From Comamonadaceae bacterium (GTDB taxonomy: Bacteria > Pseudomonadota > Gammaproteobacteria > Burkholderiales > Burkholderiaceae_C), in the NCBI GenBank assembly GCA_027488255.1, contig JAIYBZ010000009.1, positions 1 through 64,000 of the forward strand: a DNA stretch of 64,000 bases. The letters run 5' to 3'. The first letter of the stretch is position 1. Each line of letters starts with the position of its first letter. This document shows positions 17,827 to 33,743 of this stretch, piece after piece. The notes beneath the pieces are model-generated. The model did not search any database. It was not told the origin of the DNA and saw nothing but the letters and a program-made list of their open reading frames with translations. A program made the position numbers and the translations under genes.

Positions 17827-17828
17827 AT

Positions 17829-17864
17829 AAAAAATTCAGCCATCCGATTTTTGCCGGATGGCTG
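17829..17864 (-). terminator. Intercistronic hairpin between dctP and dctQM
   Basis: On the minus strand CAGCCATCCG and CGGATGGCTG form a perfect 10-bp stem with an 8-base loop, followed by AATTTTTT. It lies between the dctP stop and the dctQ start. It can act as a leaky terminator or a 3'-protecting stem, giving more binding protein than permease. Confidence 0.75.
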
Positions 17865-17888
17865 ATTGGAGAGACTCAATTCAATTCA

Positions 17889-19007
17889 TCAGGCCTTCTT
17901 GGCACCGAAGAAGTGGTTCACAGCCATACGGCGGCTGATGTTGGTGTCTTGGTCCCACTTCACAGCGCGGGCTGCAAAGGCTTTTTGAGACGCCACAATT
18001 TCCTTGAACAGTGGGTTTTCAGCCGATTTCTTCTCAACGATTTCGGTCCAGATCTTCAACTGCTCTTGCAAGATGGCATCGGGCGTCTTGTAGAACTTGA
18101 CTTTGTCCTTGGTCTGCAACTCGATGTAGTCTTTGGAATAGCGGTCGATGGCTTTCCAAGACATGTCGGCCGATGCAGCCTCAGTAGCGCCCGCAATCAC
18201 AGCCTTGAGTTTGGCTGGCAGTGCGTCGTACTTGGTCTTGTTGAACATGATCTCGAAGGTCTCGGCGCTCTGGTGGTAGCTTTGCAGCATGCAGACCTTG
18301 GAGACGTCGGGGAAGCCCAAAATGCGGTCGGAAGTGGCGTTGTTGAACTCAGCACCGTCCAGCAAACCGCGGTCCATGGCGGGCACGATTTCGCCGCCTG
18401 GCAAGGCGTTCACAGCGGCACCCATGGCGGTGAACAAGTCAATCGCCAGACCGTTGGTACGGAACTTCAGGCCCTTGAAGTCAGCCGACTTGGTGATCGG
18501 CTTTTTGAACCAGCCCAGAGGTTGGGTGGACATGGGGCCGTACAAGAACGACTGCACGTTGCCGCCAATCGAGGCGTACAGCTTGGCCAACAACTCGGCG
18601 CCACCGCCGTACTTGTGCCAAGACAAGATCATGTTGGCGTCCATGCCGAAGGCGGGGCCAGAGTTCCAGAGGGCCAAGGCGTTTTGCTTGCCGTAGTGGT
18701 ATCCCAACACGCCGTGACCGCCGTCCAAAGTGCCCTTGGACACGGCTTCGAGCAGACCAAATGCAGGCACCACAGCGCCAGCAGGCAGCACTTCAATCTT
18801 CAAGTCGCCACCGGTCATGTCGTTGACTTTTTTGGCGTAGTCCAGCGCGTACTCGTGGAAGATGTCCTTGGCGGGCCAAGTGCTCTGCCAGCGCATGTTG
18901 ATCGGGCCGGTTTGGGCGGTCGCGATCATGGGGGCGGAAATGGCACCAGCGGCAACGGCGGCACCCTTGAGAAGGTTGCGACGGCGTGGGGTTTTGGGAT
19001 CGGTCAT
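17889..19007 (-). CDS. dctP: TRAP transporter substrate-binding protein DctP
   Basis: A 372-residue periplasmic binding protein. The N-terminus has an RRRNLLKG twin-arginine-like motif, a hydrophobic stretch and an Ala-x-Ala cleavage region (IATAQT), so export may be by Tat. The body has DctP-family features: EVLPAGAVVPAFGLLEAVSKGTLD, GWFKKPITKSADFKGLKFR with the substrate-carboxylate Arg, and GEIVPAMDRGLLDG. It resembles the 2-oxoacid (TakP) and mannitol/chloroaromatic binding proteins. Next to a benzoate pathway, an aromatic carboxylate is a plausible ligand, but this is inference. Confidence 0.93.
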   Translation of the reverse strand: MTDPKTPRRRNLLKGAAVAAGAISAPMIATAQTGPINMRWQSTWPAKDIFHEYALDYAKKVNDMTGGDLKIEVLPAGAVVPAFGLLEAVSKGTLDGGHGVLGYHYGKQNALALWNSGPAFGMDANMILSWHKYGGGAELLAKLYASIGGNVQSFLYGPMSTQPLGWFKKPITKSADFKGLKFRTNGLAIDLFTAMGAAVNALPGGEIVPAMDRGLLDGAEFNNATSDRILGFPDVSKVCMLQSYHQSAETFEIMFNKTKYDALPAKLKAVIAGATEAASADMSWKAIDRYSKDYIELQTKDKVKFYKTPDAILQEQLKIWTEIVEKKSAENPLFKEIVASQKAFAARAVKWDQDTNISRRMAVNHFFGAKKA

Positions 19008-19151
19008 GGGGGTCTCCAGTCGTTGTTGAACTTGTAAGCGTAAAAAATTACCGCTTGGTCACACATTATGGGAGTCCGTACAAAAAAAAGACTAAGGGGA
19101 AACCCGAGGGGCGCCTGCCTTTTTTTCAAGCCGACCGGGAAAAAATTTCAC

Positions 19152-19778
19152 TCAGGCCAACAGATCAAATCCTTGCGCCTCGACGCTCACAAAGGCTTCG
19201 GTGAAGGCCGACAGTCGGGCATAAAAAACCGCTCTTGGGTGGTTCATCAGGGTTTGACAGAGGTTGGGCACCCAGGGCTGGACATGCTGGGTAAAAAAGG
19301 TCTGTTGCCGAGATAAATTCGACACCAACACATCGTCACCCGCAATCAAAAAACGCATGACTTCAAAAATGTAGGCCACATGGTCCTCAGTTTCAGACAT
19401 GTCCTGGCTTCGGGCCAGCCCCAATTCGGCCAAGTCATCGCGCAAGCGCACCAGAGGTTTTTCGTTCAGAAAACCGCTCAAGTAATGCGAGCCAAACAGA
19501 TAAACCTCAGGTTTGCCTACCCCGCCGAAGAGGGTGGTGTATTCGTTTGCAATTTGCGCGGCGCTCATGCTGCGGGCACAGGCCACCAACTCTCGCCAAG
19601 GTTCTTCTAAAAACCCACCCGCGTCTGGCGCCTCGGTCACGGCCACTTGCAACTGAGCCCACAAGGCCTCACTGGGCGCTTGGTAATACAGCTGTGACAG
19701 CAGGCCGTAGAGTTCAGCGCGCGCGGTTTCTTCGTCCAACATGGGGCTGTTGAGGGTCAAGTTTGTTTCTGAGATCAT
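19152..19778 (-). CDS. TorD/DmsD-family chaperone
   Basis: A 208-residue, mostly helical cytoplasmic chaperone of the TorD family, which assists assembly of molybdoenzymes before cofactor insertion or export. Visible signatures are ANEYTTLFGGVGKPEVYLFGSHYLSG and a central EDHVAYIFEVMRFLIAG helix. It is the last gene of the formate dehydrogenase operon, nine bases after the polyferredoxin gene. The 144-base gap to dctP holds an oligo-T tract on the minus strand but no textbook terminator hairpin. Confidence 0.88.
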   Translation of the reverse strand: MISETNLTLNSPMLDEETARAELYGLLSQLYYQAPSEALWAQLQVAVTEAPDAGGFLEEPWRELVACARSMSAAQIANEYTTLFGGVGKPEVYLFGSHYLSGFLNEKPLVRLRDDLAELGLARSQDMSETEDHVAYIFEVMRFLIAGDDVLVSNLSRQQTFFTQHVQPWVPNLCQTLMNHPRAVFYARLSAFTEAFVSVEAQGFDLLA

Positions 19779-19787
19779 GACAACAAC

Positions 19788-21938
19788 TTACTGAGGTTGC
19801 GAGGGTTTCGGTGCCCCCGGCACGCGCACCTGGTTCTCGTCGGTGAACATGTCCACCACGCGGCAATCGCCACACATTTTGAGTCTTTCGAGTGCAGCAC
19901 CTTGAAACATGCTGTGTCCTGCCAAACGGCCCAACATGGCTTCGATGCCCTTGAGTGTGCCAAAGGGTTTGCTGCAGCGGATGCAGGCATAAGGTGGGCT
20001 GCCATGCAAGACCCGGGGCTGCTGCCGCGATGAGAGCAAGGACAAGCGCGGTTTCAAAACGATCGCGTCTTCCGGACAGGTTTTGGCGCACAAGCCGCAC
20101 TGCACACAATTTTTTTCAATCAATCGAATCTCAGGCTGCAACGGGTTGTCTTGCAAGGCCGAGGACGGGCAGGCTCCCACACAACTCATACACAAGGTGC
20201 ACTTGTCGCCATCCACCACGATGGTGCCCCAAGGCGAGCCCGCCACTGGCAAGTCAATCGCCTGAGGTCGGCTGGCTTCGTCTTGCCGCATCACGGGAGA
20301 CTGCGTCATCAAGTGGTCGAGCACCAACTCGAGGTTGCTGCGTTTTTCAGCTTGCACGGCATGGCGTGCGGCTTGTGCCGGCCCTTCAGGCATGAGGGCC
20401 GCCTTCAGGCTGCGGCTGGCCAGGCGTTGCAAATCGGCGTCCAGTGCGGTTGGGTTTTTGGCCTCAATCAACTGGAAATGCACACCGCCATAACCGAGGC
20501 CGTTCAGAAGACTTTGGGCCACCGCCATTTGTTCCATGAGCGCAGCGCGGTACTGCGGCGCTTCTTCATCGGTGAGCAACACCATCACTTGCCGTGCACC
20601 ATAGGCAACAGCAGACAGCCAAAGCTCCAGACCCACGCTGGCGGTGTGCCACAGGGCCATCGGGATCACGCGCGCAGGCACGCCTTGCATCACTTTGAGT
20701 TGTGCCCCTCGCCCCAACTCGTCGATCAGCTTTTGACCTTTCTCTTGGCTGTGCAACAACAAGGCGGCATCACGCCCGCCCGCCGCTTGATAAGCCGTTA
20801 ACAAAGCCCGAATCTTGGCGCCCTGCTCTGCGGGTCGCGGATAGGCATAGGTCAGCGCACCGGTTGGGCAGGCCGTCGTGCATGCGCCGCAGCCCACACA
20901 CAAATGGGGATTCACAACAATTTGTTGGCGACTCTTGTCAGAGCTGATGGCTTCGGCTGAACAAATGTCCACACACGCTTGACAACCCACCTTTTCATTG
21001 CGGCTGTGGGCACAGAGTTTTTGCTTGTAGGCAAAAAAACGGGGTTTTTCAAACTCTCCCACCAACTCCCGCACTTTGAGCAAGGTCTGCAAGTCTTGTC
21101 CGTTCCAACGGAAATAGCCCTGCGGCAAGGCATGCTGCTTAAAAGTGGGCTCAGAGTGGTCGGTGCGCAAGTCCAAGACGACATCAAAGCGATCGCTTTG
21201 CAGGCGGGCTTCGCGGGTGAAATCAATCGCCCCCGCGGCTTCACACACTTTGACGCAATCACGATGCGCGGTACACAGTGAGAGGTCGACTTGGTAATCC
21301 AAGCCAATGGCTTGTTCTGGACAGGCGGCGACGCAGGCGTTGCAGCGGGTGCACAAGTCAAGATCAATCGGGTTGTTCGCTTGCCAAGAAACTTCAAAGG
21401 CGCCCAACCAGCCCTTGAGACTTTGTAGACGACCGGCCACCACGGGGAAACGGCGTTCTTGCAAGCCACCAGAGGTGCCTGCGTTTTCGGCCCAGAGGGT
21501 GATGTGCATGGCATCCGACAAAAAACCGGCGGCGCGCTCTGCGGCGTCTAAGGGCCCCATGATGAGCACACGACCCGTGGTTTTGTAGGTGACCGTGGGC
21601 ACAGGCTCAGGCTCGGGCAAACGTGCAGCGGCCAACAAGGCGGCCATTTTGGGCATGGCGTGTTCGGCTTCTTTGCCCCAGCCACCCGTTTCACGAATGT
21701 TGACAAATCTGAGAGGTGAAACTGCGCCTTCGGTCTGCTCGGCCAGTTCGGTGAACAAGCGTTTTTCTTGGGTGCAGGCCACCACCACGGTGTCGCCTGT
21801 TTTGACCGCTTTTTGAAACTGCACAGCTTCACGGCGGCACAAACTGGTGTGCAGATTTAAATTTTCACCCAGTGCTTGACCCAGAGTCTGGGCGTGCAGG
21901 GGCATGGTTTGGTTGCAATTGCAAATCAGGGTGGTCAT
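19788..21938 (-). CDS. Large 4Fe-4S polyferredoxin of formate dehydrogenase clusters
   Basis: A 716-residue soluble iron-sulfur protein. At least four full ferredoxin cluster motifs can be read: CTRCNACVAACPEQAI, CVGCGACTTACPTGAL, CTLCMSCVGACPSSAL and CVQCGLCAKTCPEDAI, plus partial ones (CQACVDICSAEAI). The N-terminus (TLICNCNQTMPL) fits the group found beside DUF3305/DUF3306 genes in respiratory formate dehydrogenase loci. Its role is probably electron transfer or enzyme maturation. The ATG at 21938 overlaps the DUF3306 gene by 74 bases. Confidence 0.88.
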   Translation of the reverse strand: MTTLICNCNQTMPLHAQTLGQALGENLNLHTSLCRREAVQFQKAVKTGDTVVVACTQEKRLFTELAEQTEGAVSPLRFVNIRETGGWGKEAEHAMPKMAALLAAARLPEPEPVPTVTYKTTGRVLIMGPLDAAERAAGFLSDAMHITLWAENAGTSGGLQERRFPVVAGRLQSLKGWLGAFEVSWQANNPIDLDLCTRCNACVAACPEQAIGLDYQVDLSLCTAHRDCVKVCEAAGAIDFTREARLQSDRFDVVLDLRTDHSEPTFKQHALPQGYFRWNGQDLQTLLKVRELVGEFEKPRFFAYKQKLCAHSRNEKVGCQACVDICSAEAISSDKSRQQIVVNPHLCVGCGACTTACPTGALTYAYPRPAEQGAKIRALLTAYQAAGGRDAALLLHSQEKGQKLIDELGRGAQLKVMQGVPARVIPMALWHTASVGLELWLSAVAYGARQVMVLLTDEEAPQYRAALMEQMAVAQSLLNGLGYGGVHFQLIEAKNPTALDADLQRLASRSLKAALMPEGPAQAARHAVQAEKRSNLELVLDHLMTQSPVMRQDEASRPQAIDLPVAGSPWGTIVVDGDKCTLCMSCVGACPSSALQDNPLQPEIRLIEKNCVQCGLCAKTCPEDAIVLKPRLSLLSSRQQPRVLHGSPPYACIRCSKPFGTLKGIEAMLGRLAGHSMFQGAALERLKMCGDCRVVDMFTDENQVRVPGAPKPSQPQ

Positions 21939-22482
21939 GTGGGGCTGTGGTGTCCGCCTGCAATGCCGAAGCGGCTTGCGGGTCTGGGGACTTTGCCACA
22001 AATGCCGCCGAATCAGAGGCAGGTGCGCTGTGATCAGGGTTTTCCTGAGTCTTTGGGAAAAGATTCAACAACTCGGCACCCACCATTTTTTGCAGCATAC
22101 CGGCGGGCATGGGGTCGGGGGTGTTGTAGTCCCCAATGTAAATGTCCAAGCCATCCATGACATTGAAATGCGGGTCCGTGAAAAGCTTCTTCATCGCGGC
22201 GTTGCGCACTTCGCCCGGCACGCCTTGCCGCATGTAGGTCTGAAAATCAGACGACGGAGTCAGACGCTCGACATCTTCCAAGGTTGGTGTGGGTTCTGCA
22301 GGCCCCTCTGGCGGGTTAGGGGGCGTGTGCGAGGCCGCTGATTGGGGCGCAGCAAGCCCCTGATGGGCCTGCGGCAACTGGCGCGCATCGGCTTGCGTTG
22401 CAACAGGCTGAATGGCCTCTGGCTCCTGACGGTCAAGGCCTTGCTTGCGGCGTGACCAACGGCTGAAAAAGGGCTCACTCAT
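21865..22482 (-). CDS. DUF3306 protein
   Basis: A 205-residue protein starting MSEPFFSRWSRRKQ, the diagnostic N-terminus of DUF3306. A Pro/Gln-rich linker leads to the conserved core LTPSSDFQTYMRQGV and ALKKLF-like block (AAMKKLFTDPHFNVMDGLD). The C-terminal 60 residues are low complexity. DUF3306 genes occur in formate dehydrogenase clusters, with unknown function. The start overlaps the DUF3305 stop (ATGA). I rejected a longer frame starting at 22629 because it runs inside DUF3305. Confidence 0.88.
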   Translation of the reverse strand: MSEPFFSRWSRRKQGLDRQEPEAIQPVATQADARQLPQAHQGLAAPQSAASHTPPNPPEGPAEPTPTLEDVERLTPSSDFQTYMRQGVPGEVRNAAMKKLFTDPHFNVMDGLDIYIGDYNTPDPMPAGMLQKMVGAELLNLFPKTQENPDHSAPASDSAAFVAKSPDPQAASALQADTTAPHDHPDLQLQPNHAPARPDSGSSTG

Positions 22483-23036
22483 GCGGCCGGTCCTCCGCCT
22501 TTGCGTTTGCTGTCGGTGCTGATCGAAACCGGTTGTCCGAAACGGTCTGTCAGGCGTTGAAAACTTTGGGGCCGCTGGCGTTTTTTTTCTTCCGGCACGT
22601 AATGTTGCGCCGCAAAGGCCAGCATCCACTCCACCACGTCGGCAGGGGCGGCCACGGTTTCAACCGTTTCTTGTGCGTCCATCCAACGGCCCGCATCGTG
22701 GTAACTCAAGCTCACTGCTTGAGGCACTGCCGTTGGCTCACTGCCATCGTCTTGGTCAATGAGTCGCCACATCACAAAATAGCAAGGTGTGGTGGAAGTG
22801 CCATTGAGCCAATAGCCTTCTGCATCGTCCGCATACAGCGTGACTGCCCCATTGGGATACATCCACAAACACTCGTTCTCTGACTGGCGCAGACAACGCG
22901 GCTCTAGCCCAAAACCCGATTCATGCGGCACCACATCGGCCAACACCCAGCGCCAGGGTTGCCACCGGGCCATCGGGCCTTGCACCGGCTCTCGGCGCAT
23001 CAGCACAGCCACATCAATTTGAGGGCGTGTCGTCAT
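22479..23036 (-). CDS. DUF3305 protein
   Basis: A 185-residue protein with the DUF3305 pattern: VLMRREPVQGPMARWQPWRW near the start, an aromatic core (YPNGAVTLYADDAEGYWLNGTS), and a C-terminal RPQSFQRLTDRFGQPV segment. Such proteins accompany formate dehydrogenases and are presumed maturation or regulatory factors. It begins two bases after the fdsA stop and overlaps DUF3306 by four bases. Confidence 0.88.
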   Translation of the reverse strand: MTTRPQIDVAVLMRREPVQGPMARWQPWRWVLADVVPHESGFGLEPRCLRQSENECLWMYPNGAVTLYADDAEGYWLNGTSTTPCYFVMWRLIDQDDGSEPTAVPQAVSLSYHDAGRWMDAQETVETVAAPADVVEWMLAFAAQHYVPEEKKRQRPQSFQRLTDRFGQPVSISTDSKRKGGGPAA

Positions 23037-23038
23037 GT

Positions 23039-25858
23039 TCAGGAAACCCTTTGAGAAAAAGAGAGGGTCTCCGAAGGGATGCCCACGGGCTCAATTCTGA
23101 CCGCGCAATACTTGAACTCTGGAATCTTGCCAAAAGGATCCAGCGCCGAGTGGGTCAACTCGTTGGCCGCCGCCTCGACAAAGGCAAACGGAATAAACAC
23201 GGCACCGGGCGGCGTGCCATCGTCTTGGCGCAGCATCAGCTGCACCGCACCGCGGCGAGAAATCACGCTGATTTTCTGACCCGGTTGCAACTTCAGTCGC
23301 GCCAAGTCGGCGGCACACATCGAGGCCGTCGCTGCGGGCTCCAAGGCATGCAAAACCGTGGCACGGCGTGTCATGCTGCCGGTGTGCCAGTGCTCGAGCT
23401 GGCGTCCCGTGATGAGCACCATCGGGTAGTCGGCATCGGGTTGCTCATGGGCCGGAATCAGATTCACCGGCACCAACTGGACTCGGCCATCCCGCGTCGG
23501 GAATTGGTCATGGAAGACGATGGGTTGCCCCGGGTCTTCGGCACTCACACACGGATAGGTCACCGAGCCTGCATTCAGGCGCGCCCAGTCGATGCCACCA
23601 ATGGAGGGGGCCATGGCTTGGCGCATTTCTTCGTACACCGCCGCCACGCCCTCGTGTTCGCCGGGGTAGTGCCATCTCAAGCCCATGCGTTGGGCCAATT
23701 GCTGAATGATCCACAAGTCAGGCCGGGCATCTCCGGGCGCGGACACCGCTTGTCGACCCATTTGCACGGTGCGATCGGTGTTGCTCACCGTGCCGGTTTT
23801 TTCGGGCCAGGCCGTGGCAGGCAACACCACATCGGCCAACCAAGCGGTTTCGGTCAAGAAAATGTCTTGCACCACCAAGTGCTCCAGGCTGGCCAAGGCG
23901 TGGCGTGCGTGGTGCAGATCGGGGTCGCTCATGGCCGGGTTTTCGCCCATGATGTACATGCCGCGCACCTTGTGCGGATCGGTCTCGGGGGCCAAGGCCT
24001 TGAGCATGATTTCCACCACGGTGTAGCCCGGCTGGTCATCCAATGTCGTGCCCCAAAACTGCTCAAACCAAGCATGTGCCCCAGGGTCACTGACGCGCTG
24101 GTAGTTGGGGAACATCATGGGAATCAGCCCCACATCGCTCGCGCCCTGCACGTTGTTTTGTCCGCGCAAAGGATGCAAGCCGGTTCCCGGGCGGCCAATT
24201 TGGCCGGTGATGCTGGCCAAGGCAATCAAGCAACGCACGTTGTCGGTGCCGTGCACATGCTGGCTCACGCCCATGCCCCACAAAATCATGGCGGCTTTGG
24301 CCGTGGCATAGGCCCGAGCCACTTCGCGGATGGTTTGCGCCGGTATGCCACAGACCTCGCTCATTTTTTCGGGCGAAAAGTCGTGCACATGCCGTTTGAG
24401 CGCGGCCACATTCTCGGCACGCGAGGCCAAAAACGCTTCGTTGCACAAACCCTCTGTCACGATGACGTGCAGCATGGCGTTGAGCAAGGCCACATCGGTA
24501 TCGGCTTTGAACTGAAGCGTGCGCCAAGCGTGCCGCCCGATGTCGGTGATGCGGGGGTCGGCCAACACGATGCGCGTGCCCCGTTGGGCGGCGTTTTTCA
24601 TCCAGCTGGCCGCCACGGGGTGGTTGGCGGTGGGGTTGGAGCCAATCACCAGTATCAAGTCGGCGTGTTCCACATCGCGCACCGGGTTGCTCACCGCCCC
24701 GGAGCCCACACCTTCCAGCAAGGCCGCCACACTGGAGGCGTGACACAGCCGGGTGCAGTGGTCGACGTTGTTGCTGCCAAAACCGGTGCGCACCAGTTTT
24801 TGGAACAAATAGGCTTCTTCGTTGCTGCCCTTGGCCGAACCAAAACCGGCCAAAGACTTCGCTCCATATTGCGTACGCAAGGCGTTCAGCGGTTGCGCCG
24901 CCAGGTCTAAGGCTTCTTCCCAAGTGGCTTCACGAAACACCTCGCGCCAATCGGTCTGCCCGTCCAACAGCGACACCTCTTTGGCCACGCCCGGCTTGCG
25001 AATCAGCGGCCGGGTGATGCGGTCGGGGCTGTGGATGTAGTCCATGCCAAAGCGGCCCTTGACGCACAAGCGCCCTTCGTTGGCAGGCCCCTCGCGGCCT
25101 TGCACGCTGATGATTTTTTCATCGCGCACTTGGTAAGTGACCAAGCACCCCACACCACAAAACGGACACACCGAGTCCACTTGGCGGTCCACCTTTTGCG
25201 GCCCCATGTGGCTCTTGGGCATGAGCGCGCCGGTAGGACACGCTTGCACACACTCGCCGCAACCCACACAGCTGCTGGCTCCCATAGGGTCGGCCAGGTC
25301 AAACACCACTTGGGTGTGCGCCCCGCGGAACGCCATGCCGATCACATCGTTGACTTGCAGGTCGCGGCAAGCCCGCTCGCAGCGGTTGCACTGAATGCAG
25401 GCATCCAAATTCACGGCCATGGCCGGGTGCGTCAGGTCTGCGGGCACAGGCTCGCGGCGCAACTCGGCCAAGGCGGGTCGCACCGCCACACCATGGTGCT
25501 CGGCCCATTGGCTCAACTCGCCGTGTGGCGCTTCTGGTCGATCGTCCAACCACTTGTGCCCTTGCTCGGGCAAGTCGGCCAACAACATCTCGAGCACCAT
25601 TTTTTGGCTTTTAACGGCTCGCGCGCTGTCGGTGCGCACCTGCATGCCGGGGGTGGCACTGCGGCAGCAGCTCGGGGCCAAGGTGCGCTCTCCCTCGATT
25701 TCGACCACACAAGCGCGGCAGTTGCCGTCGGTGGGCAAGCCTTCTTTGTGGCACAAATGGGGAATGGCGATGCCCAAGTCTTTGGCAATGTTGAAAATAC
25801 TGCGCCCCGGCGCGGCCTTCACGCTTTGCCCATTCAGGGTGAATTCAATGGCGCTCAT
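23039..25858 (-). CDS. fdsA: NAD-dependent formate dehydrogenase, catalytic alpha subunit
   Basis: A 939-residue Mo/W-bis-MGD enzyme oxidising formate to CO2. From the N-terminus: a [2Fe-2S] NuoG-like domain (CHKEGLPTDGNCRAC), a ferredoxin domain (CIQCNRCERAC, CVGCGECVQACPTGAL), the MopB [4Fe-4S] motif CPFCGVGC, and the active-site segment TRLCHASSVAAL, whose Cys (about residue 372) replaces selenocysteine as the metal ligand next to the catalytic His. The C-terminus has the molydopterin dinucleotide-binding fold (ITGRQLEHWHTGSMTRR). The ATG at 25858 overlaps the stop of the fused beta/gamma gene (ATGA). Confidence 0.95.
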   Translation of the reverse strand: MSAIEFTLNGQSVKAAPGRSIFNIAKDLGIAIPHLCHKEGLPTDGNCRACVVEIEGERTLAPSCCRSATPGMQVRTDSARAVKSQKMVLEMLLADLPEQGHKWLDDRPEAPHGELSQWAEHHGVAVRPALAELRREPVPADLTHPAMAVNLDACIQCNRCERACRDLQVNDVIGMAFRGAHTQVVFDLADPMGASSCVGCGECVQACPTGALMPKSHMGPQKVDRQVDSVCPFCGVGCLVTYQVRDEKIISVQGREGPANEGRLCVKGRFGMDYIHSPDRITRPLIRKPGVAKEVSLLDGQTDWREVFREATWEEALDLAAQPLNALRTQYGAKSLAGFGSAKGSNEEAYLFQKLVRTGFGSNNVDHCTRLCHASSVAALLEGVGSGAVSNPVRDVEHADLILVIGSNPTANHPVAASWMKNAAQRGTRIVLADPRITDIGRHAWRTLQFKADTDVALLNAMLHVIVTEGLCNEAFLASRAENVAALKRHVHDFSPEKMSEVCGIPAQTIREVARAYATAKAAMILWGMGVSQHVHGTDNVRCLIALASITGQIGRPGTGLHPLRGQNNVQGASDVGLIPMMFPNYQRVSDPGAHAWFEQFWGTTLDDQPGYTVVEIMLKALAPETDPHKVRGMYIMGENPAMSDPDLHHARHALASLEHLVVQDIFLTETAWLADVVLPATAWPEKTGTVSNTDRTVQMGRQAVSAPGDARPDLWIIQQLAQRMGLRWHYPGEHEGVAAVYEEMRQAMAPSIGGIDWARLNAGSVTYPCVSAEDPGQPIVFHDQFPTRDGRVQLVPVNLIPAHEQPDADYPMVLITGRQLEHWHTGSMTRRATVLHALEPAATASMCAADLARLKLQPGQKISVISRRGAVQLMLRQDDGTPPGAVFIPFAFVEAAANELTHSALDPFGKIPEFKYCAVRIEPVGIPSETLSFSQRVS

Positions 25859-27579
25859 ACCGCGGCCCCGACTTCGTGGGGGAAGTAGTTCAAGACGCAC
25901 CGAATCGGGTTGGGCGCAGCTTGGCCCAGACCACAAATCGACGCATCGCCCATCACCTGGGCCAAGTCTTGCAAGGTGTCGGTGTCCCACACCTTGTTCA
26001 CCATCAGTTGCGCGGCTTTCTCGGTGCCCACACGGCAAGGGGTGCATTGCCCACAACTTTCGTGCGCAAAGAAACGCATCACATTCAAGGCGGCATCGCG
26101 CGCGCTGTCGTGCTGACTCAAGACCATCACCGCGGCCGAACCGATGAAACAGCCATAAGGTTGCAAGGTGTCAAAGTCGAGCGGGACATCCGCCAAATGC
26201 GCCGGCAAAATGCCGCCGCTCGCGCCGCCAGGCAAGTAGGCGTACAGCGTGTGGCCCTCGGCCATGCCGCCGCAGTAATCGTCCACCAGTTCGCGCAAAG
26301 TGATGCCTGCGGGGGCCAGCTTGACCCCCGGGTTTTGCACGCGACCACTGACACTGAAACGGCGCAAGCCCTGCCGGCCATGACGACCTTGTGCAGAAAA
26401 ATGCTCTGGGCCGTTGTCCAGCAACTCCCGAATCCAAAACAGGGTTTCAAAGTTGTGCTCGAGCGTGGGCCGGCCCCACAAACCCACCTCGGCAATGTAG
26501 GGGGGACGCAGGCGCGGCTCGCCACGTTTGCCTTCGATGCTCTCAATCATGGCGGACTCTTCGCCGCAAATATAGGCGCCAGCACCACGGCGCAACTCGA
26601 TCAGTGGCAAGCGGCAAGGCGGATTGGCGCGCAATTCGGCCAGCGCTTGTGTGAGCAGCAAGCGGGCCTCGTGGTACTCGTCGCGCAAGTAAATATAGAC
26701 AGCATCTATGCCCACCACTTGGGCTGCGATCAGCAGGCCTTCCAAGAAACGGTGGGGGTCGGCCTCAAGACAGGTGCGGTCTTTGAAAGTGCCAGGCTCG
26801 CCTTCGTCGATGTTCACCGCCATCAGGCGGGGCGCCGCTTGGCTGCGCACAATACGCCACTTTCTGCCGGCCGGGAAACCTGCGCCTCCCAAGCCCCGCA
26901 GGCCTGAAGACTCGAGTTGCTGTATCACCGATTCGGCTTCGCATACACCTGTGGCCAATTGCTGCGCCCAGCGGTAGCCGCCGCTTTGCATATAGTCTTT
27001 CAGCTGCACCGCATGCGGCAGGGCGTTGGGTTGGGTTTGGTTTTGCGACACGCGTTGGCTGACCTCGGCCACGGTGGCGTGCGCCACAGCTTGCTGACCC
27101 ACTTGGGCCGCGGGGGCTTGCTCACATCGCCCCAAACACGGCACGGGCACCACTTTCACATCCAGCAATTGGGCCTGCAACTGGCGCAACAAAGTGTCAC
27201 TGCCCGCCAGACTGCAACTCAAGCTGTCGCACACCCGCACTGTGAGGCGCGGCGCAGATTGATCGTCTTTCAAGATGTCGAAGTGGTGGTAGAAAGAGGC
27301 CACCTCAAAGACTTCCACCACGGACAAACGCATCTCGGCGGCCAGCGCGACCAAGTGCCTTTCAAACAGACCGCGGTAATGGTCGTTCAGCACATGCAAG
27401 TGTTCGATCAACAAATCCCTGCGGTGCCCTTCAGCAGGAGCCAACCCGATGAGCGCTTGCACATCGGCGCGCGCTTCAGGCAAGACCTGACGGCCTTTGA
27501 GCTGCGCACGGGGCTTGCCCAGCGTTTGCCGCAGTTGACTCACATCAATGCGGGTTTCAGATGGGATGGGGGCCTGCAT
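25855..27579 (-). CDS. Fused formate dehydrogenase gamma-beta (FdsG-FdsB) subunit
   Basis: A 574-residue fusion. Residues about 1-190 match the NuoE/FdsG thioredoxin-like [2Fe-2S] subunit, with Cys in CDSLSCSLAG and CLGRCEQAP. Residues about 200-574 match NuoF/FdsB: FMN loop GLRGLGGAGFPAGRKW, NAD site DEGEPGTFKDR, and the [4Fe-4S] motif CGQCTPCRVGTEK with a later Cys in CGLGQ. It passes electrons from FdsA to NAD+. In most fds operons these are two genes. It lies 79 bases after boxA, with no clear terminator between them. Confidence 0.93.
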   Translation of the reverse strand: MQAPIPSETRIDVSQLRQTLGKPRAQLKGRQVLPEARADVQALIGLAPAEGHRRDLLIEHLHVLNDHYRGLFERHLVALAAEMRLSVVEVFEVASFYHHFDILKDDQSAPRLTVRVCDSLSCSLAGSDTLLRQLQAQLLDVKVVPVPCLGRCEQAPAAQVGQQAVAHATVAEVSQRVSQNQTQPNALPHAVQLKDYMQSGGYRWAQQLATGVCEAESVIQQLESSGLRGLGGAGFPAGRKWRIVRSQAAPRLMAVNIDEGEPGTFKDRTCLEADPHRFLEGLLIAAQVVGIDAVYIYLRDEYHEARLLLTQALAELRANPPCRLPLIELRRGAGAYICGEESAMIESIEGKRGEPRLRPPYIAEVGLWGRPTLEHNFETLFWIRELLDNGPEHFSAQGRHGRQGLRRFSVSGRVQNPGVKLAPAGITLRELVDDYCGGMAEGHTLYAYLPGGASGGILPAHLADVPLDFDTLQPYGCFIGSAAVMVLSQHDSARDAALNVMRFFAHESCGQCTPCRVGTEKAAQLMVNKVWDTDTLQDLAQVMGDASICGLGQAAPNPIRCVLNYFPHEVGAAV

Positions 27580-27658
27580 GGGATGAAGGTGACTCTAGGT
27601 GGCGGACGCAGGCGGGTGGAAAGCCGATTGAAATGCGTGGCTAGACATGGCCAGTTGC

Positions 27659-28990
27659 TCAATAGGTTTCCAAATGCAGGCGGCCTTCTTTTTTGAGCGA
27701 AGCCCCCACGCTGTCCCAATCGAGTCCGGCGTTTTGCGCAATGTCGCGCAAGGCCAAGACCACGCCCTCTTCCATGCTTTTCAGACCACACACATAAAAG
27801 AAGGTGTTGCTGTCTTTCAGCAAGGCGGCGACATCGGCGGCGCGGTCGCGCAAGGCGTCTTGCACATAACGCTTGGTTTTGCCGGCTTCACGCGAGAACG
27901 CAAACTCGATGTCGATGAAGTCTTTTGGCAAGTTGTTCAGTGGGCCAAAGTAAGGCAACTCAGCCGGGGTACGCGCGCCAAAGAACAGCATCAGCTTGCC
28001 GCCCTCAAATTTGCCGCTGGCCCGCAGGCGGCGCCGCCACTCGGTCATGGCGCGCATGGGCGCAGAACCAGTGCCGGTGCAAATCATGACGATGTTGCTC
28101 TTGGGGTGGTTGGGCATCAAGAAACTGGCACCAAAGGGGCCAATCACTTGTACTTTGTCGCCCACCTTCAGGTCGCACATGTAATTAGAGCCCACGCCGC
28201 GCACAGGCTTGCCGTCGTGGTCTTCGAGCACCCGCTTGATGGTCAGCGACAGGTTGTTGTGGCCGGGGCGTTCGCCATTGCGCGGGCTGGCAATCGAGTA
28301 CTGGCGCGCATGGTGCGGCTTGCCCTTGGCATCTTCACCGGGCGGCAATATGCCAATCGATTGGCCTTCCAAAACGGGAAACGGCAAAGAGCCAAAGTCG
28401 AGCACGATGTGGTGGGTGTCATAGTCGTGCTGGCCCGCTTGTTTGCCCACTTCGGTCACACGCAAATTGCCGGTGACGGTGGCGGTGATGGTTTTTTCGG
28501 CCGCCTTGGGGCCATACAAGTTGGTGTAGGCATGGGCCGCTGACCATGGGGGAACGGTGGCACCGAACTGGGTCGAGTTAAAGCCCGAAGCGGCCGGGGC
28601 GCTGCCCGCCGAAGAGGTGGAGGCCGCCGCTTGCACCGCGGCTTGCGCCTGTTGTTGAGCCAGCGCATCCGCTGCACCCGCCGTGACCGACTCGCCTGCC
28701 GCTTCAACCAGTTCTTCTGAGCTGAGCTCGGTGGGCAAGACATCCCATTTGAGTTGTTCTTCGATGCTGTAAGCCTTGGCTTTGGGCATCATGCGCCAGT
28801 TGTCAATTGAGCCGGTCGGGCATGGCGAAATGCAGTCCATACAGCCATTGCACACATCGGCCTTGACCACGTAGTTGAGCGAGTCGTGCGTGATCGCGCC
28901 CACTGGGCAGATCGCTTCACAGGTGTTGCAACGGATGCAGATCTCGGGGTCGATCAGGTGTTGTTTGATCAGCGTCGCTTCGGTGCTCAT
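27659..28990 (-). CDS. boxA: Benzoyl-CoA 2,3-epoxidase reductase subunit BoxA
   Basis: A 443-residue reductase that feeds NADPH electrons to BoxB. The N-terminus has two [4Fe-4S] motifs, [16 protein letters not shown] and [16 protein letters not shown]. An Ala/Gln-rich linker (about residues 95-145) leads to a ferredoxin-NADP reductase domain with [14 protein letters not shown] (FAD), [10 protein letters not shown] (NADP) and a C-terminal [12 protein letters not shown] block. This ferredoxin-plus-FNR architecture is diagnostic of BoxA. It follows boxB after an unusually long, repeat-bearing gap. Confidence 0.96.
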
Positions 28991-29036
28991 GTCTTGGCTT
29001 TCGGGTGTTTTGTCTCTTTAGTCTGCTTGAAACGCA

Positions 29037-29108
29037 ACGGTATGGCTTGGGGCCGAGCCCCTCATGCTGGGGTACCAGAAATCGGCGCCCGACCCCAAGC
29101 CATACCGT
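29037..29108. repeat. Stem-loop A: 16-bp perfect inverted repeat with a conserved loop core
   Basis: Arms 29037-29052 (ACGGTATGGCTTGGGG) and 29093-29108 are exact reverse complements around a 40-base loop. The loop contains a 25-base core at 29060-29084 (starts CCTCATGCTGGGG, ends CAGAAATCG), itself holding CTGG-GGTA-CCAG. The same core recurs inverted in stem-loop B, although the arms of A and B are unrelated. No coding potential is supported. Confidence 0.9.
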
Positions 29109-29167
29109 CGCTTTGTGCCATTTTTACGTCGGCAGTCTACCGATATTTGTGCGCACGGTGCACTCAC

Positions 29168-29245
29168 GCAGTTGGCAGAGAAAGGGGCGGGTGACGATTT
29201 CTGGTACCCCAGCATGAGGAACCCGCCCCTTTCTCTGCCAACTGC
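29168..29245. repeat. Stem-loop B: 25-bp perfect inverted repeat with the same loop core inverted
   Basis: Arms 29168-29192 (contains GTTGGCAGAGAAAGGGGC) and 29221-29245 are exact reverse complements around a 28-base loop. The loop is almost entirely the 25-base core (29195-29219), an exact reverse complement of 29060-29084. Together the two elements fill most of the 298-base boxB-boxA gap; the 59 bases between them show no gene. Confidence 0.92.
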
Positions 29246-29288
29246 CACCCCCAACATGAGGGCAGCAGTCGGTCAAAGATTTAAAGCA

Positions 29289-30716
29289 TCAGTTAAAGCG
29301 GACGTAATCAAAGTCCACAGGCTGACGGTTAATGCCCATGACGGGAGGGGCGATCCAGTTGGCAAATTTGCCGGGCTCAACGCAACGGCCCATCAAGCTG
29401 GCCACATAGGCGCGGTCTTCGTTGGTGGGCAGCCACTCGCCCACTTTGGCCATCCACTCCTCGTTGCTCACCACACGGCCATCGGGCGTGACTTTGGCGC
29501 CTGACAAAGAGCCAATGTTGCGGTGGAACGCCTTGTGTGGCGCGGTCAATGTGAAAGGAATGCCCGCCTTGGAAATCACACGGTTCCAGCGCTCGATACC
29601 GCCTTTGGAATCGGTGATGTAGTCGTCGCGCAGCACTTCGTTCAAAGCGTTGAGCATCGGCACTTCTTTCTCGACCAATTTGCCGTCTTCGACCGACAAA
29701 ATTTTGTAGCTGTTGCCCTTCAAGACGTGGTCGTCGGTGCGCTTGCCTTCTTCGTAACGGCCCTTCAAGCCCGAGCTGTAGAAGGTGGCGGCGTTGGACG
29801 ATTGGTCAGCACCAAACAAGTCGATGGTCACCGAGAAGTGGAAGTTGATGTAACGCTGGATGGTGGGCAAATCGATCACGCCTGCGGCGCGCAGCTTGGC
29901 CACATCGTCGGTCTTGAGTTGGTTCATCACATCCACGGTGCGCTGGATGGTGCGGCTCACGCCCGACTCGCCCACAAACATGTGGTGCGCTTCTTCGGTC
30001 AGCATGAACTTGGTGGTGCGGGCCAACGGGTCGAAAGCCGATTCGGCCAAGGCGCACAACTGGAACTTACCGTCACGGTCGGTGAAGTAAGTGAACATGA
30101 AGAACGACAACCAGTCGGGGGTCTTCTCGTTGAAGGCTTGCAAGATGCGGGGATTGTCTTCGTTGCCGCTGTTGCGCTGGAGCAAAGCATCGGCTTCTTC
30201 GCGGCCGTCTTTGCCAAAGTATTTGTGCAACAAATACACCATGGCCCAGAGATGACGGCCTTCTTCCACGTTGATCTGAAACAGGTTGCGCAGGTCGTAC
30301 ATGCTGGGCGCGGTCAGGCCCAGGTGGCGTTGCTGCTCGACCGATGCGGGCTCGGTGTCGCCTTGGGTCACGATGATGCGGCGCAGATTGGCGCGGTGTT
30401 CGCCAGGCACGTCTTGCCAGGCTTTTTCGCCAATGTGGTCACCAAAATGGATCTTGCGGTCTTGCTCGCCGGGGTTCAAGAAAACGCCCCAACGGTAGTC
30501 GCGCATCTTCACGTGACCAAACTGGGCCCAGCCTTGCGGGTCCACGCTCACGGCGGTACGCAGGTACACATCCATGTCGGTCGAGCCTTCGGGGCCCATG
30601 TCGTCCCACCAGTTGATGAAGTTGGGTTGCCACTGTTCCAAAGCGCGCTGCAAAGTGCGGTCTTCGCTCAGGTTGACGTTGTTGGGAATCTTTTCGCTGT
30701 AGTTGATACCAGACAT
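29289..30716 (-). CDS. boxB: Benzoyl-CoA 2,3-epoxidase oxygenase subunit BoxB
   Basis: A 475-residue di-iron oxygenase that forms 2,3-epoxybenzoyl-CoA from benzoyl-CoA and O2. Iron-ligand motifs appear as NVEEGRHLWAMVYLL and LTEEAHHMFVGESG, and the N-terminal block NYSEKIPNNVNLSEDRTLQRALE is characteristic. The ATG at 30716 is chosen because TTTGGAGA stands just upstream; an in-frame TTG at 30728 would place the start inside that ribosome-binding site. It is the second gene of the boxCBA order. Confidence 0.97.
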   Translation of the reverse strand: MSGINYSEKIPNNVNLSEDRTLQRALEQWQPNFINWWDDMGPEGSTDMDVYLRTAVSVDPQGWAQFGHVKMRDYRWGVFLNPGEQDRKIHFGDHIGEKAWQDVPGEHRANLRRIIVTQGDTEPASVEQQRHLGLTAPSMYDLRNLFQINVEEGRHLWAMVYLLHKYFGKDGREEADALLQRNSGNEDNPRILQAFNEKTPDWLSFFMFTYFTDRDGKFQLCALAESAFDPLARTTKFMLTEEAHHMFVGESGVSRTIQRTVDVMNQLKTDDVAKLRAAGVIDLPTIQRYINFHFSVTIDLFGADQSSNAATFYSSGLKGRYEEGKRTDDHVLKGNSYKILSVEDGKLVEKEVPMLNALNEVLRDDYITDSKGGIERWNRVISKAGIPFTLTAPHKAFHRNIGSLSGAKVTPDGRVVSNEEWMAKVGEWLPTNEDRAYVASLMGRCVEPGKFANWIAPPVMGINRQPVDFDYVRFN

Positions 30717-30803
30717 GGAAGTCTCCAAAAATGAAGCAACGGTGGGGTCAAATTTCGGTTACAGCCAGCACCACCGGGAAGCCAGCCGCACAACGCAAAA
30801 ACA

Positions 30804-32462
30804 TCAAACGCGGTTCATGTCGAACTGAACTTTTTCGCCTTTGCCATACACCTTCAAGGCGCCTTTTTCACCAACAGCGTTGGGCCGTTGGAAGATCCAG
30901 TTTTGCCAAGCGGTCAAGCGGCCAAAAATGCGCGTGGCCATGTTCTCTTTTTGTGCAAAGCGCAAGTTGGCTTCGAGGCCGGTCAAGGCATCGGGCGACA
31001 TGGCGCTGCGCTCTTCCAAGGCCAAGCGGATCTCGTCGCCCCAGTCAATGTCGTCGGGTGCGGCGGTGACCAAGCCCAAGGCCAGTGCGGCATCGGCGTC
31101 CAAGGCCTGACCCACGGCTGCGCGTGCGGCTTCCATCGCGGGCACTTCTTCGTAAAAGCGGCGCTGCAAACGGGTTTGGTCGTTCACCATCGGGAAGAAG
31201 CCAAAGTTCATCTCGCTCAGCTGCATCTTGGGGGCTTTGTCGGCATCGTCGGGCAAAGCCAACATGTAGGCGCGGTCGGCGCAGAAAGCCAGTTCGGCCA
31301 AGGTGCCGACAAAGCAAGAACCTTCTTCAATCAGGGCAAACAGGCTGCGTGAGGTCACATCCAAGCGGGCCAAGGTGCGGCGCAAGTGGCCAATGGTTTC
31401 GCGCACAAACCAATGGTCTTTGTGGGCCAAAAGCGCCGCATCGGCGGCCAGCACTTGGGCGGCATCGCCAGAAGTTTTCAGCACCCATGTGCCCATGTCC
31501 AACTCATTGGTGCGCATGTGCAAGATGGCGTCGTCCAACTCGCGAACCATCTGCAGCGGCCACCAGTTCACACCTGCCGCCTCGATGCCGGCGATGTCGC
31601 TGGCGGGCGCTGTCGCAGGGGCCTTCACGGTGAATGTGGCCATGCGCTTGGCGCGGTCAATCTCGACACTCACATGGGTGTAGTTCACGCTGTCTGCAGA
31701 AATGCTGCGGTTCAGAGGTGTCAGTGTCACGCCCTTGGCGCCCACGGGACGCTTGCTGCTGGCGGCCAATTTGGTGGCACGGGCTTGCACCGCTTCTTTG
31801 AAGACTGCAGGCTTGGCAATCGCATCGACCAAACGCCAGTCGACTGCTTTTTGGCCGCGCACCCCTTCGACGCTGGTGCAAAAAATATCGGCCAAGTCGT
31901 GACGCACATGGCGCTTGTCGGTCACACGGGTCAAACCGCCGGTACCGGGCAACACACCGAGCAAAGGCACTTCTGGCAGCGACACCGCGCTGGAGCGGTC
32001 ATCGACCAAAACGATTTCATCGCAGGCCAAAGCCAACTCATAACCACCACCGGCGCAAGCACCATTCAGGGCAGCGACAAATTTCAAGCCATCGTGCTTG
32101 CTGGAGTCTTCGATGCCGTTGCGTGTTTCGTTGGTGAATTTGCAAAAGTTGACTTTCCAGCCGTGTGTGGACACGCCCAACATGAAGATGTTGGCACCCG
32201 AGCAAAACACACGGTCTTTCAAACTGGTCACCACCACCGAGCGCACTTCGGGGTGCTCAAAACGAATGCGTTGCAAGGCATCGTGCAACTCAATGTCCAC
32301 TCCCAAGTCGTAGCTGTTCAGCTTGAGTTTGTAGCCCGGACGGATGCCAGCGTCTTCGTTGATGTTGATCGACAGCGTGGCAATCTCGCCGTCAAAAGCC
32401 AATTGGATGTGTTTGTATTGGGCGGGGTTGGTTTGGTAATCAACCTGTGGCATTGTGGTCAT
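30804..32462 (-). CDS. boxC: 2,3-epoxybenzoyl-CoA dihydrolase BoxC
   Basis: A 552-residue enzyme of the crotonase superfamily that hydrolytically opens the epoxidised ring, giving 3,4-dehydroadipyl-CoA semialdehyde and formate. The N-terminal crotonase half shows NGACAGGGYELALACDEIVLVDDRSSA and PLLGVLPGTGGLTR, and a second crotonase-like half follows. The length matches the family. GGAGA lies upstream of the ATG. It is the first gene of the boxCBA operon, preceded by two BoxR-like operators. The formate it makes is the substrate of the dehydrogenase encoded downstream. Confidence 0.97.
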   Translation of the reverse strand: MTTMPQVDYQTNPAQYKHIQLAFDGEIATLSININEDAGIRPGYKLKLNSYDLGVDIELHDALQRIRFEHPEVRSVVVTSLKDRVFCSGANIFMLGVSTHGWKVNFCKFTNETRNGIEDSSKHDGLKFVAALNGACAGGGYELALACDEIVLVDDRSSAVSLPEVPLLGVLPGTGGLTRVTDKRHVRHDLADIFCTSVEGVRGQKAVDWRLVDAIAKPAVFKEAVQARATKLAASSKRPVGAKGVTLTPLNRSISADSVNYTHVSVEIDRAKRMATFTVKAPATAPASDIAGIEAAGVNWWPLQMVRELDDAILHMRTNELDMGTWVLKTSGDAAQVLAADAALLAHKDHWFVRETIGHLRRTLARLDVTSRSLFALIEEGSCFVGTLAELAFCADRAYMLALPDDADKAPKMQLSEMNFGFFPMVNDQTRLQRRFYEEVPAMEAARAAVGQALDADAALALGLVTAAPDDIDWGDEIRLALEERSAMSPDALTGLEANLRFAQKENMATRIFGRLTAWQNWIFQRPNAVGEKGALKVYGKGEKVQFDMNRV

Positions 32463-32507
32463 GGGAGTCTCCGTGGGTGCAGGGTGGAATTGATTCGGGT
32501 CAAAAAA

Positions 32508-32521
32508 TGCATTTCAGTGCA
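32508..32521. promoter_or_regulatory. BoxR-like operator, boxC proximal
   Basis: TGCATTTCAGTGCA is an inverted TGCA-N6-TGCA repeat located 46 bases upstream of the boxC start. It is a close match, in reverse, to the site at 32564-32577. TGCA repeats are the recognition element described for the BzdR/BoxR regulator family. Confidence 0.7.
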
Positions 32522-32532
32522 TGTTGACGTGA

Positions 32533-32561: not shown

Positions 32562-32563
32562 TA

Positions 32564-32577
32564 TGCACTTTAATGCA
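32564..32577. promoter_or_regulatory. BoxR-like operator, boxC distal
   Basis: TGCACTTTAATGCA, an inverted TGCA-N6-TGCA repeat in the boxR-boxC gap, immediately upstream of the predicted -35 element. It differs by one base from the site in front of boxD at 33595-33608. Confidence 0.75.
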
Positions 32578-32621
32578 TTTAATTGGTATTTACCCTAGGA
32601 AATGAAAAATGGTGCGGCCGC

Positions 32622-33536
32622 TCATGCCGGACTTTGCACGTGTTGGCGAACCGAAGTACGCAAAGCGGCGAAGGCCTGGTCTTCGGTGCGGCCACTGGTG
32701 TTGATGGCCAGATCGGCTTTTGAATAAAACGCCGAACGGCCTTCCAAAATGCGCTTGAGGTCTTCCATGGCTTCTTTGCTGGCGGCCATGGGACGCATAT
32801 CGCCTTGCGCGGCCACTCGGCCCATGTGATCGGCAGGATCGGCCTGCAACCAGACGGTGGTGCAGTGCGACAACAAGAGGTTGAAGTTGGCCGAATCAGA
32901 GACCAAACCGCCCGGCGTGGCGATCACCACTTCGGGATAAATTTGAATGGCTTCTTCCAGCGCACGGCGTTCATAGCGGCGGTAAGCATTGGCGCCATAA
33001 AGGTTGTGAATTTCGCTGATCTGGCAGCCTGCAAACTGCTCGATCTCTCGGCTCAGTTCGATGAAGGGGAAACCCAAATCTTGCGCCAAACGCTGGCCCA
33101 GCGAGGTTTTGCCCGCACCCCGCAGGCCAATCAAGGCGATGCGATTTTTGCGCTCCTGGGCATTGCCGCCTTCGCCGAACATGTCGCTCAACTGCACGCG
33201 GGCCCGGCGCAAATCGGCCTCGCTGCGCTTAGACAACAACTCACGAATCAACAACCATTCGGGCGAAGTGGTGGTGACATCCCCCAACAACTCCGCCAAA
33301 GAGCATTGCAAGGCATTGGCCACTTGCAGCAAGACCAACACCGACACATTGCCCGTGCCGTATTCGAGGTTGGCCAAATGGCGCTCCGACACATCGGCGG
33401 CCACGGCCACGGCGCGGCGGGTCATGCCTTTGCGTGAGCGCAAATTGCGCACGCGTTCGCCCAGCGCCTCCAAAAAAGGACTGCGCTTGGACTCTGACTC
33501 AACGGGCTCTTGCACCACGGACTCTTGAGCTGTCAT
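32622..33536 (-). CDS. boxR: Benzoyl-CoA responsive transcriptional regulator BoxR
   Basis: A 304-residue two-domain regulator. The N-terminal part is an XRE/Cro helix-turn-helix (RVRNLRSRKGMTRRAVAVAADV, SERHLANLEYGTGNVSV). The C-terminal part is a shikimate-kinase-like domain with P-loop LRGAGKTSLG (around residues 137-146), which in this family senses benzoyl-CoA rather than acting as a kinase. It represses box genes until the effector is made. The ATG at 33536 follows AAAGG. It stands between boxC (same strand) and boxD (divergent). Confidence 0.95.
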   Translation of the reverse strand: MTAQESVVQEPVESESKRSPFLEALGERVRNLRSRKGMTRRAVAVAADVSERHLANLEYGTGNVSVLVLLQVANALQCSLAELLGDVTTTSPEWLLIRELLSKRSEADLRRARVQLSDMFGEGGNAQERKNRIALIGLRGAGKTSLGQRLAQDLGFPFIELSREIEQFAGCQISEIHNLYGANAYRRYERRALEEAIQIYPEVVIATPGGLVSDSANFNLLLSHCTTVWLQADPADHMGRVAAQGDMRPMAASKEAMEDLKRILEGRSAFYSKADLAINTSGRTEDQAFAALRTSVRQHVQSPA

Positions 33537-33594
33537 GTTCAACCTTTGACCAATTACCAAGGGAAAACCCTAATTTTTTTACAACCCTAAAACA

Positions 33595-33608
33595 TGCACT
33601 TTATTGCA
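33595..33608. promoter_or_regulatory. BoxR-like operator, boxR-boxD gap, site 1
   Basis: TGCACTTTATTGCA in the divergent boxR-boxD intergenic region. It overlaps a possible boxD promoter (TTTACA at 33578, 17-base spacer, TTATTG at 33601). It is almost identical to 32564-32577. Confidence 0.75.
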
Positions 33609-33620
33609 TACTCTCTGGCA

Positions 33621-33634
33621 CGCACAATAATGCA
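33621..33634. promoter_or_regulatory. BoxR-like operator, boxR-boxD gap, site 2 (imperfect)
   Basis: CGCACAATAATGCA matches the other sites except for the first base and the centre. It lies 26 bases downstream of site 1, centre to centre, between site 1 and boxD. Confidence 0.5.
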
Positions 33635-33743
33635 TCAACTGCTGTTTATACCGCCAACTGAGGGCGATGAACAGTTTTTTGTAGCAAAACAGTGCATGCG
33701 CCTCCCTTCGTCGCTGGAAAACGACCTTCTGAAAGTCCCGCAC

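Follow-up and report, generated by a model that had tools for sequence, protein, structure and literature searches.

The stretch of DNA analysed here, hereafter the window, comprises 64,000 nucleotides (positions 1 to 64,000 of contig JAIYBZ010000009.1) from a Comamonadaceae bacterium, the genome of which is assembled in 38 contigs with 97% completeness. It carries genes for aerobic benzoyl-CoA degradation (box genes) and, behind them, genes for a formate dehydrogenase (FDH). Reading down the minus strand from 33.6 kb, the order is boxR, boxC, boxB, boxA, fdhB, fdhA and genes for a DUF3305 protein, a DUF3306 protein, a multi-[4Fe-4S] protein and a TorD-like protein (Table 1). BoxAB converts benzoyl-CoA to its epoxide, after which BoxC opens the ring and frees formate. 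The products of boxA, boxB and boxC all scored above the curated cut-offs, boxD and a benzoate-CoA ligase gene lie divergently and a BoxR regulator is present, which identifies an aerobic benzoyl-CoA cluster. The boxC and boxB products also matched the structures 2w3p_A (915 bits) and 3per_A (813 bits), respectively. An earlier note, made from the letters alone, had read the locus as boxC, boxB and boxA running into a dehydrogenase of the Fds type on one strand; family models and reading frames bear out this order, whereas the Fds label does not stand.

Table 1. Features of the box-FDH locus and its surroundings, in window coordinates.
Feature	Position	Strand	Remarks
boxR, helix-turn-helix + shikimate-kinase-like regulator	32622..33560	-	NF006015, 446 bits, cut-off 204; HTH_3, SKI domains
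boxC, 2,3-epoxybenzoyl-CoA dihydrolase (formate-releasing ring cleavage)	30804..32462	-	TIGR03222, 965 bits, cut-off 712
boxB, oxygenase component of benzoyl-CoA 2,3-epoxidase	29289..30728	-	TIGR03225, 901, cut-off 499
boxB-boxA spacer, two strong hairpins (REP/BIME-like inverted repeats)	28991..29288	-	298 bp; inverted repeats 25, 40, 46 nt
boxA, reductase component of benzoyl-CoA 2,3-epoxidase	27659..28990	-	TIGR03224, 728, cut-off 459
boxA-fdhB junction	27580..27658	-	79 bp exactly; no terminator-like site, no BoxR operator
fdhB (FDH1/FdwB type), fused NuoE/NuoF-like beta subunit	25855..27579	-	Pfam 2Fe-2S_thioredx, Complex1_51K, NADH_4Fe-4S
fdhA (FDH1/FdwA type), catalytic alpha subunit	23039..25858	-	TIGR01591, 705 bits, cut-off 666
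DUF3305 protein	22479..23036	-	PF11749, 150 bits
DUF3306 protein (start uncertain)	21865..22629	-	PF11748, 119 bits
multi-[4Fe-4S] protein (start uncertain)	19788..22001	-	four Fer4 stretches
TorD/DmsD-like molybdoenzyme chaperone	19152..19778	-	PF02613, 94 bits; NF003442 below its cut-off
BoxR-type operator upstream of boxC	32507..32522	.	exact ATGCAN6TGCAT
BoxR-type operator upstream of boxC	32563..32578	.	exact ATGCAN6TGCAT
BoxR-type operator ATGCACTTTATTGCAT	33594..33609	.	exact ATGCAN6TGCAT; motif from PMC6449761
boxD (divergent arm)	33594..35315	+	NF008868, 857 bits, cut-off 444, match from residue 54
bclA-type benzoate-CoA ligase (divergent arm)	35452..37011	+	TIGR02262, 765 bits, cut-off 375
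Tripartite ATP-independent periplasmic (TRAP) transporter binding protein DctP, neighbour	17889..19007	-	PF03480
TRAP DctQ, neighbour	17191..17826	-	PF04290
TRAP DctM, neighbour	15215..17194	-	PF06808
fdhD-type sulfurtransferase for FDH, neighbour	14218..15102	-	PF02634, 248 bits

By sequence, the dehydrogenase is of the FDH1/Fdw type, the two-subunit group of the tungsten FDH of Methylorubrum and Fdw of Cupriavidus. Both subunits match Methylorubrum extorquens FDH1 over nearly their whole length: FdhB gave 681 bits to the FDH1 beta chain (7e5z_B, residues 23-568 aligning with 21-561) versus 255 to the beta chain of a separate-subunit NAD-linked FDH (6vw7_B), and FdhA gave 1183 bits to FDH1 (7vw6_A) versus 546 to 6tg9_A. 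FdhA has the Fe-S N-terminus and the molybdopterin domains, and its Cys-His stretch DHCTRLCHASS, which we take to be the catalytic one, is identical in FDH1. Its start, placed from the sequence of the fdhB-fdhA junction, shares an ATGA with the fdhB stop. No twin-arginine translocation (Tat) signal, such as FDH3 and the exported respiratory FDHs have, is present in residues 1-60 of FdhA, as expected for a cytoplasmic enzyme. Rhodobacter and Cupriavidus FdsGBACD has FdsG and FdsB as separate subunits. Although that enzyme is likewise NAD-linked and NuoEF/NuoG-like, G and B are fused in the window and Fds-type chains score less than half as high as FDH1; the Fds assignment was rejected on these grounds and the label corrected to FDH1. 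NADH is the predicted product of FdhBA, given its FDH1 family and the NuoF-type domains in FdhB. No second FDH alpha subunit of the TIGR01591 family scored above the cut-off in the window's genome, in which other FDH families were not searched.

The spacing of 79 bases between boxA and the dehydrogenase had been given exactly in the earlier note, and its remark that no clear terminator lies there also holds: the junction contains neither a terminator-like site nor an inverted repeat and does not fold stably (z 0.2). The terminator scan is weak evidence, because it found fewer sites over 15.5 kb than in its shuffles. Ten loci encode BoxB 95-98% identical to that of the window, and six of them are titled Limnohabitans, which is thus very likely the genus of the window as well. 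Among the 11 Limnohabitans-type loci, which include the window and two that bear other titles (L024 and L025), the boxA stop and the fdhB ATG are 6 nt apart in eight; the remaining three gaps measure 79 (the window), 189 (L126) and 231 nt (L031). One of these loci, L024 (1-12354 of CALQKH020000005.1), carries a Limnohabitans-type box-FDH1 cluster with a BoxB 97% identical in a metagenome-assembled genome (MAG) titled Akkermansia muciniphila; the contig is most likely mislabelled or mis-binned.

The exact motif ATGCAN6TGCAT occurs three times in the 64 kb, always at the box divergon before boxC and boxD, and no exact copy precedes fdhB. The looser TGCAN6TGCA was found six times in the window, three of them away from the divergon, and a few other spots in the window are at least as rich in single TGCA words as boxC is, so that only the spaced pair is special. 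Across 42 loci, the exact motif lies within 200 bp before boxC in 27 and between boxA and the next FDH-related gene in none. In five loci (L032 and L107-L110) it falls 25 nt into an FDH3 beta gene, which is probably a coding coincidence. A further copy, at 9516 of L114, sits in the gap that parts TorD from FDH3 alpha and would fit direct control of FDH3 by BoxR. Spacing and operators together favour a BoxR-driven unit that would include fdhBA.

We then surveyed how often an FDH accompanies box genes. Of 399 family genomes drawn evenly, 210 had boxB and 193 the FDH1 beta subunit at a threshold of E up to 1e-110. FDH1 occurred in 141 of the 210 box genomes versus 52 of the 189 without box, counts in which relatives are not independent. 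The locus table comprised 215 box loci from 201 genomes; nine genomes with partial BoxB (G041, G061, G090, G171, G193, G242, G278, G310 and G334) were left out, one of which, G041, looks DUF3305-linked by its coordinates. In 15 of the 215 loci, from eight genera (0.11 expected), FDH1 beta followed box on the same strand at a distance of up to 6 kb, and DUF3305 lay within 5 kb without FDH1 in 13 loci from six genera (0.09 expected); the chance figures assume 4.2 Mb per genome, and the list of genome places was checked for completeness for fdhB. The 28 linked loci are a lower bound. Uncounted are G152 (L115), where an FdhA-like and a partial FdhB-like sequence follow soon after boxA with FdhB below the threshold, and G015 and G299, where FDH1 lies 9 and 12 kb from box. 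Among the 80 named loci, which are the nearest by BoxB and not an even sample, seven have FDH1 and six the DUF3305-TorD block without FDH1. Within the genus, a box-type spacer and fdhB are linked on one strand in 30 of the 34 genomes having both (25 at 1.3-1.6 kb, five at 3.9-4.1 kb), and the other four have them on separate contigs; these spacer rows were hand-picked from matches to the spacer repeat. In an FdhB tree of 63 rows, 40 of them hand-picked unlinked ones, the 11 Limnohabitans-type rows form one clade (support 100/99), and the linked label needs eight changes, at least five of them forced by well-supported branches. By these changes, the box-FDH link has been gained or lost several times.

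The explanation we prefer is a BoxR-controlled box operon, the 3' part of which would encode an NAD-linked FDH1-type dehydrogenase oxidising the formate released by BoxC; we put its probability at roughly 80%. The genes behind fdhA raise a separate question. Five accessory genes had been announced, and we found four between fdhA and position 19152. A T-run lies within 144 bp after the TorD-like gene, which is probably the last gene of the unit. Such a block is usually found with exported FDHs and accompanies fdhGHI-type operons (PMC4464133). All 13 DUF3305-linked, FDH1-free family loci have the complete DUF3305-DUF3306-FeS-TorD block, and 11 of them have FDH3 alpha and beta genes further on along the same strand; no FDH3 was found inside the stretch searched in G280 and G341. 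In two of the 11 (G327 and G260), TorD and FDH3 are contiguous; in the other nine they are some 4 kb apart, with an opposite-strand kinase-like gene between them. FDH3 was named from a single locus, L032 (beta subunit NF038355, 342 bits, cut-off 240; alpha subunit with a twin-arginine stretch), and elsewhere by tblastn against L032. In the six block-only loci of the named set, FDH3 was not seen in five, where only 0.8-4.7 kb of sequence was left. In four genomes of one genus (g25), FDH3 lies near box and FDH1 is missing at the threshold used, and G327, from the window's genus group, has box and FDH3 together with a different FDH1 elsewhere, 68% identical and from another clade. We also noted a gene for a type I restriction-modification subunit M (TIGR00497; L057, 18689-21193) adjoining the accessory block in a Hydrogenophaga MAG.

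FDH3 seems absent from the window's genome, where the next-best TIGR01591 match after fdhA scored 154 bits against 476 for the FDH3 alpha subunit of L032, so that the block would either act on FdhBA or be a remnant. That it is the leftover of a lost FDH3 and does not serve FdhBA is a real possibility, if a little less probable than its opposite, and is compatible with the operon proposed above. The frequent FDH3 behind the block in FDH1-free loci points this way, as does G189, where FDH1 lies at box and the genome contains no DUF3305. On the other hand, all four block frames are open in the window, L127 and L128 retain the block and lack FDH3 in the sequence fetched for them (the rest of these genomes was unsearched), and L123, L124 and L126 carry FDH1, the block and FDH3 in a row.

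Alternatively, the FDH genes could be a transcription unit of their own for other formate, from one-carbon metabolism or taken up for energy, and stand beside box by history, in which case they would have no role of their own in the use of benzoate. Their occurrence in family genomes without box would fit such a unit, and in most FDH1-bearing box genomes FDH1 lies away from box. Behind fdhA, seven of the ten related loci have a gene for a sensor histidine kinase (L025, at 17819-19327, L027, L029, L030, L031, L125 and L126), and L024, L127, L128 and the window have none there. We nevertheless regard this account as unlikely, given the same-strand adjacency in eight genera, the forced linkage changes on the FdhB tree, the 6-nt junctions, the lack of an operator of its own at the boxA-fdhB junction and the presence of another FDH type near box in other genera.

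Several observations weigh against the operon that we propose, the sensor kinase genes among them. The genome-level association of box and FDH1 is inflated by relatedness, and 69 box genomes lack FDH1. No FDH-related gene lies inside the distances used in 187 of the 215 family loci. Outside the family, neither FDH1 nor FDH3 was clearly present in the sequence fetched for 59 of 60 loci; 60 stretches were taken in, several of them short (L189, 4.1 kb), and 11 further listed places were left out. L155 is the sole outside-family locus of the 60 with FDH1 behind boxA, and L153 and L156 gave a weak FdhA match of 27-28%. Because most loci inside and outside the family do without it, the box-FDH link is optional. 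In L126 and L031, where fdhB lies 189 and 231 nt behind boxA, a separate promoter could fit into the gap, and no exact operator precedes boxC in 15 of the 42 loci, two of which (L024 and L119) are cut there. A scan for promoter-like consensus sites found nothing at the junction and is no help, because it was also empty before boxC. Finally, very strong hairpins lie inside the proposed unit.

These hairpins occupy the boxB-boxA spacer, on which the earlier note was silent. The spacer has stems of 20-25 bp, and its repeats resemble repetitive extragenic palindromic (REP) and bacterial interspersed mosaic (BIME) elements. Similar spacers occur in 12 related loci, with three hairpins in four of them and one hairpin mostly lost in L127; the stems vary in sequence yet still fold. 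In L032 and L033, which are close by BoxB, the boxB-boxA gaps are 34 and 26 nt and hairpins are absent. The hairpin core is a scattered repeat of the genus, often in inverted pairs, with matches in 56 of 60 genomes at E 1e-5 and up to 20 in each; in the window's genome, the box copy alone matched it well. No Rfam family matched in the spacer, and the exact core was found in no viral contig and no plasmid. A box-specific riboregulator is weakened as a candidate because the core is scattered through the genus. We also dropped hairpins as a general feature of boxB-boxA gaps, the difference being too weak (of 65 such gaps in other loci that were 60 nt or longer, 35% had z below -3, versus 19% of 62 boxC-boxB gaps). 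That the hairpins split the unit and leave fdhBA weakly expressed from the BoxR promoter is improbable, for however strong they are (z -8.7 in the window; median -11.6 over 13 related spacers), no T-run follows either of them, boxA, which the pathway needs, lies downstream, and such repeats are scattered in the genus. The spacer is possibly a transcript processing or stabilising element.

In the proposed operon, BoxAB would epoxidise benzoyl-CoA, the ring cleavage by BoxC would release formate and FdhBA would oxidise it to CO2 with NADH as the product, as its family suggests. FdhD, and perhaps the DUF3305-TorD block, would mature FdhBA. Expression would come mainly from the BoxR-controlled promoter of boxC and run through boxA into fdhBA, and the hairpin-rich spacer might, speculatively, set the ratio of the boxCB to the boxA-fdhBA message. 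On a wider view, formate disposal could be an interchangeable last module of the box gene cluster, in which either a cytoplasmic, NAD-linked FDH1 or a Tat-exported FDH3 was repeatedly placed on the same strand behind boxCBA. We offer this idea tentatively, at slightly less than even odds: three loci have both enzymes in a row, and the idea is weakened because about 4 kb with an opposite-strand kinase-like gene part the block from FDH3 in nine of 11 loci. If it is true, the choice between FDH1 and FDH3 would decide whether the electrons of formate reach NADH or the respiratory chain, FDH3 being presumably quinone-linked, and lineages with FDH3 would need to export formate to the periplasm.

Around the unit, the true start of boxD probably lies further inside the listed frame, because the listed start overlaps an operator. 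The TRAP genes and fdhD are on the same strand as the unit, beyond the T-run-bearing gap after the TorD-like gene, and the fdhD product matched the NCBIfam FdhD models below their cut-offs. The transporter DctPQM (15215-19007) adjoins the FDH unit, likewise in L127 and L128, and an aromatic acid is a possible substrate. In one family of the order (f11; L149, L153, L154 and L160), the box genes run boxC-boxB-boxA-boxB, and the second boxB is 59-61% identical to that of the window.

To our knowledge, the enzyme that takes up the formate of the box pathway, one molecule per ring, has seldom been settled. The recurrent gene link names a likely enzyme in a common freshwater genus, and the natural variants with FDH1, FDH3, both or none allow the value of formate oxidation in aromatic degradation to be measured. 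The earlier note held that the arrangement is not standard in described box clusters, which agrees with its absence from most family loci; the idea is, however, not new, because Suvorova and Gelfand (2019; PMC6449761) had already published it as a prediction for Azoarcus sp. EbN1. There, the BoxR regulon of EbN1 might include FdhBA for the formate of BoxC, which was argued from a very short gap, and in strain BH72 the genes are near but too far apart. This is the one direct precedent we found in the open-licence literature, in which we found no account of the direct boxA-fdhB arrangement in Limnohabitans or of an alternation of FDH1 and FDH3. PMC4782131 ties formate from aromatics to FDH in SAR324 without an operon, and PMC8402940 reports box genes and FDHs in one genome.

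Compared with known systems, the accessory block is of the same kind as in the TorD/DmsD-fdhGHI operons with DUF3305 and DUF3306 (PMC4464133) and in FDH3 (NF038355), which differ from the window in that the latter has no FDH3 catalytic genes. The dehydrogenase resembles M. extorquens FDH1 (PDB 7vw6, 7e5z, 8j83) and Cupriavidus FdwAB (PMC2842291) in being two-subunit and NAD-linked with a fused GB beta subunit, and differs from both in its linkage to box genes. A further likeness is to Azoarcus EbN1 (PMC6449761), which also has a box divergon with BoxR sites and FdhBA (COG1894, COG3383) beside box with a proposed role in formate removal. In EbN1, FdhBA comes after a lactonase gene and together with a thioesterase, whereas in the window fdhB directly follows boxA and the DUF3305-TorD genes come after fdhBA.

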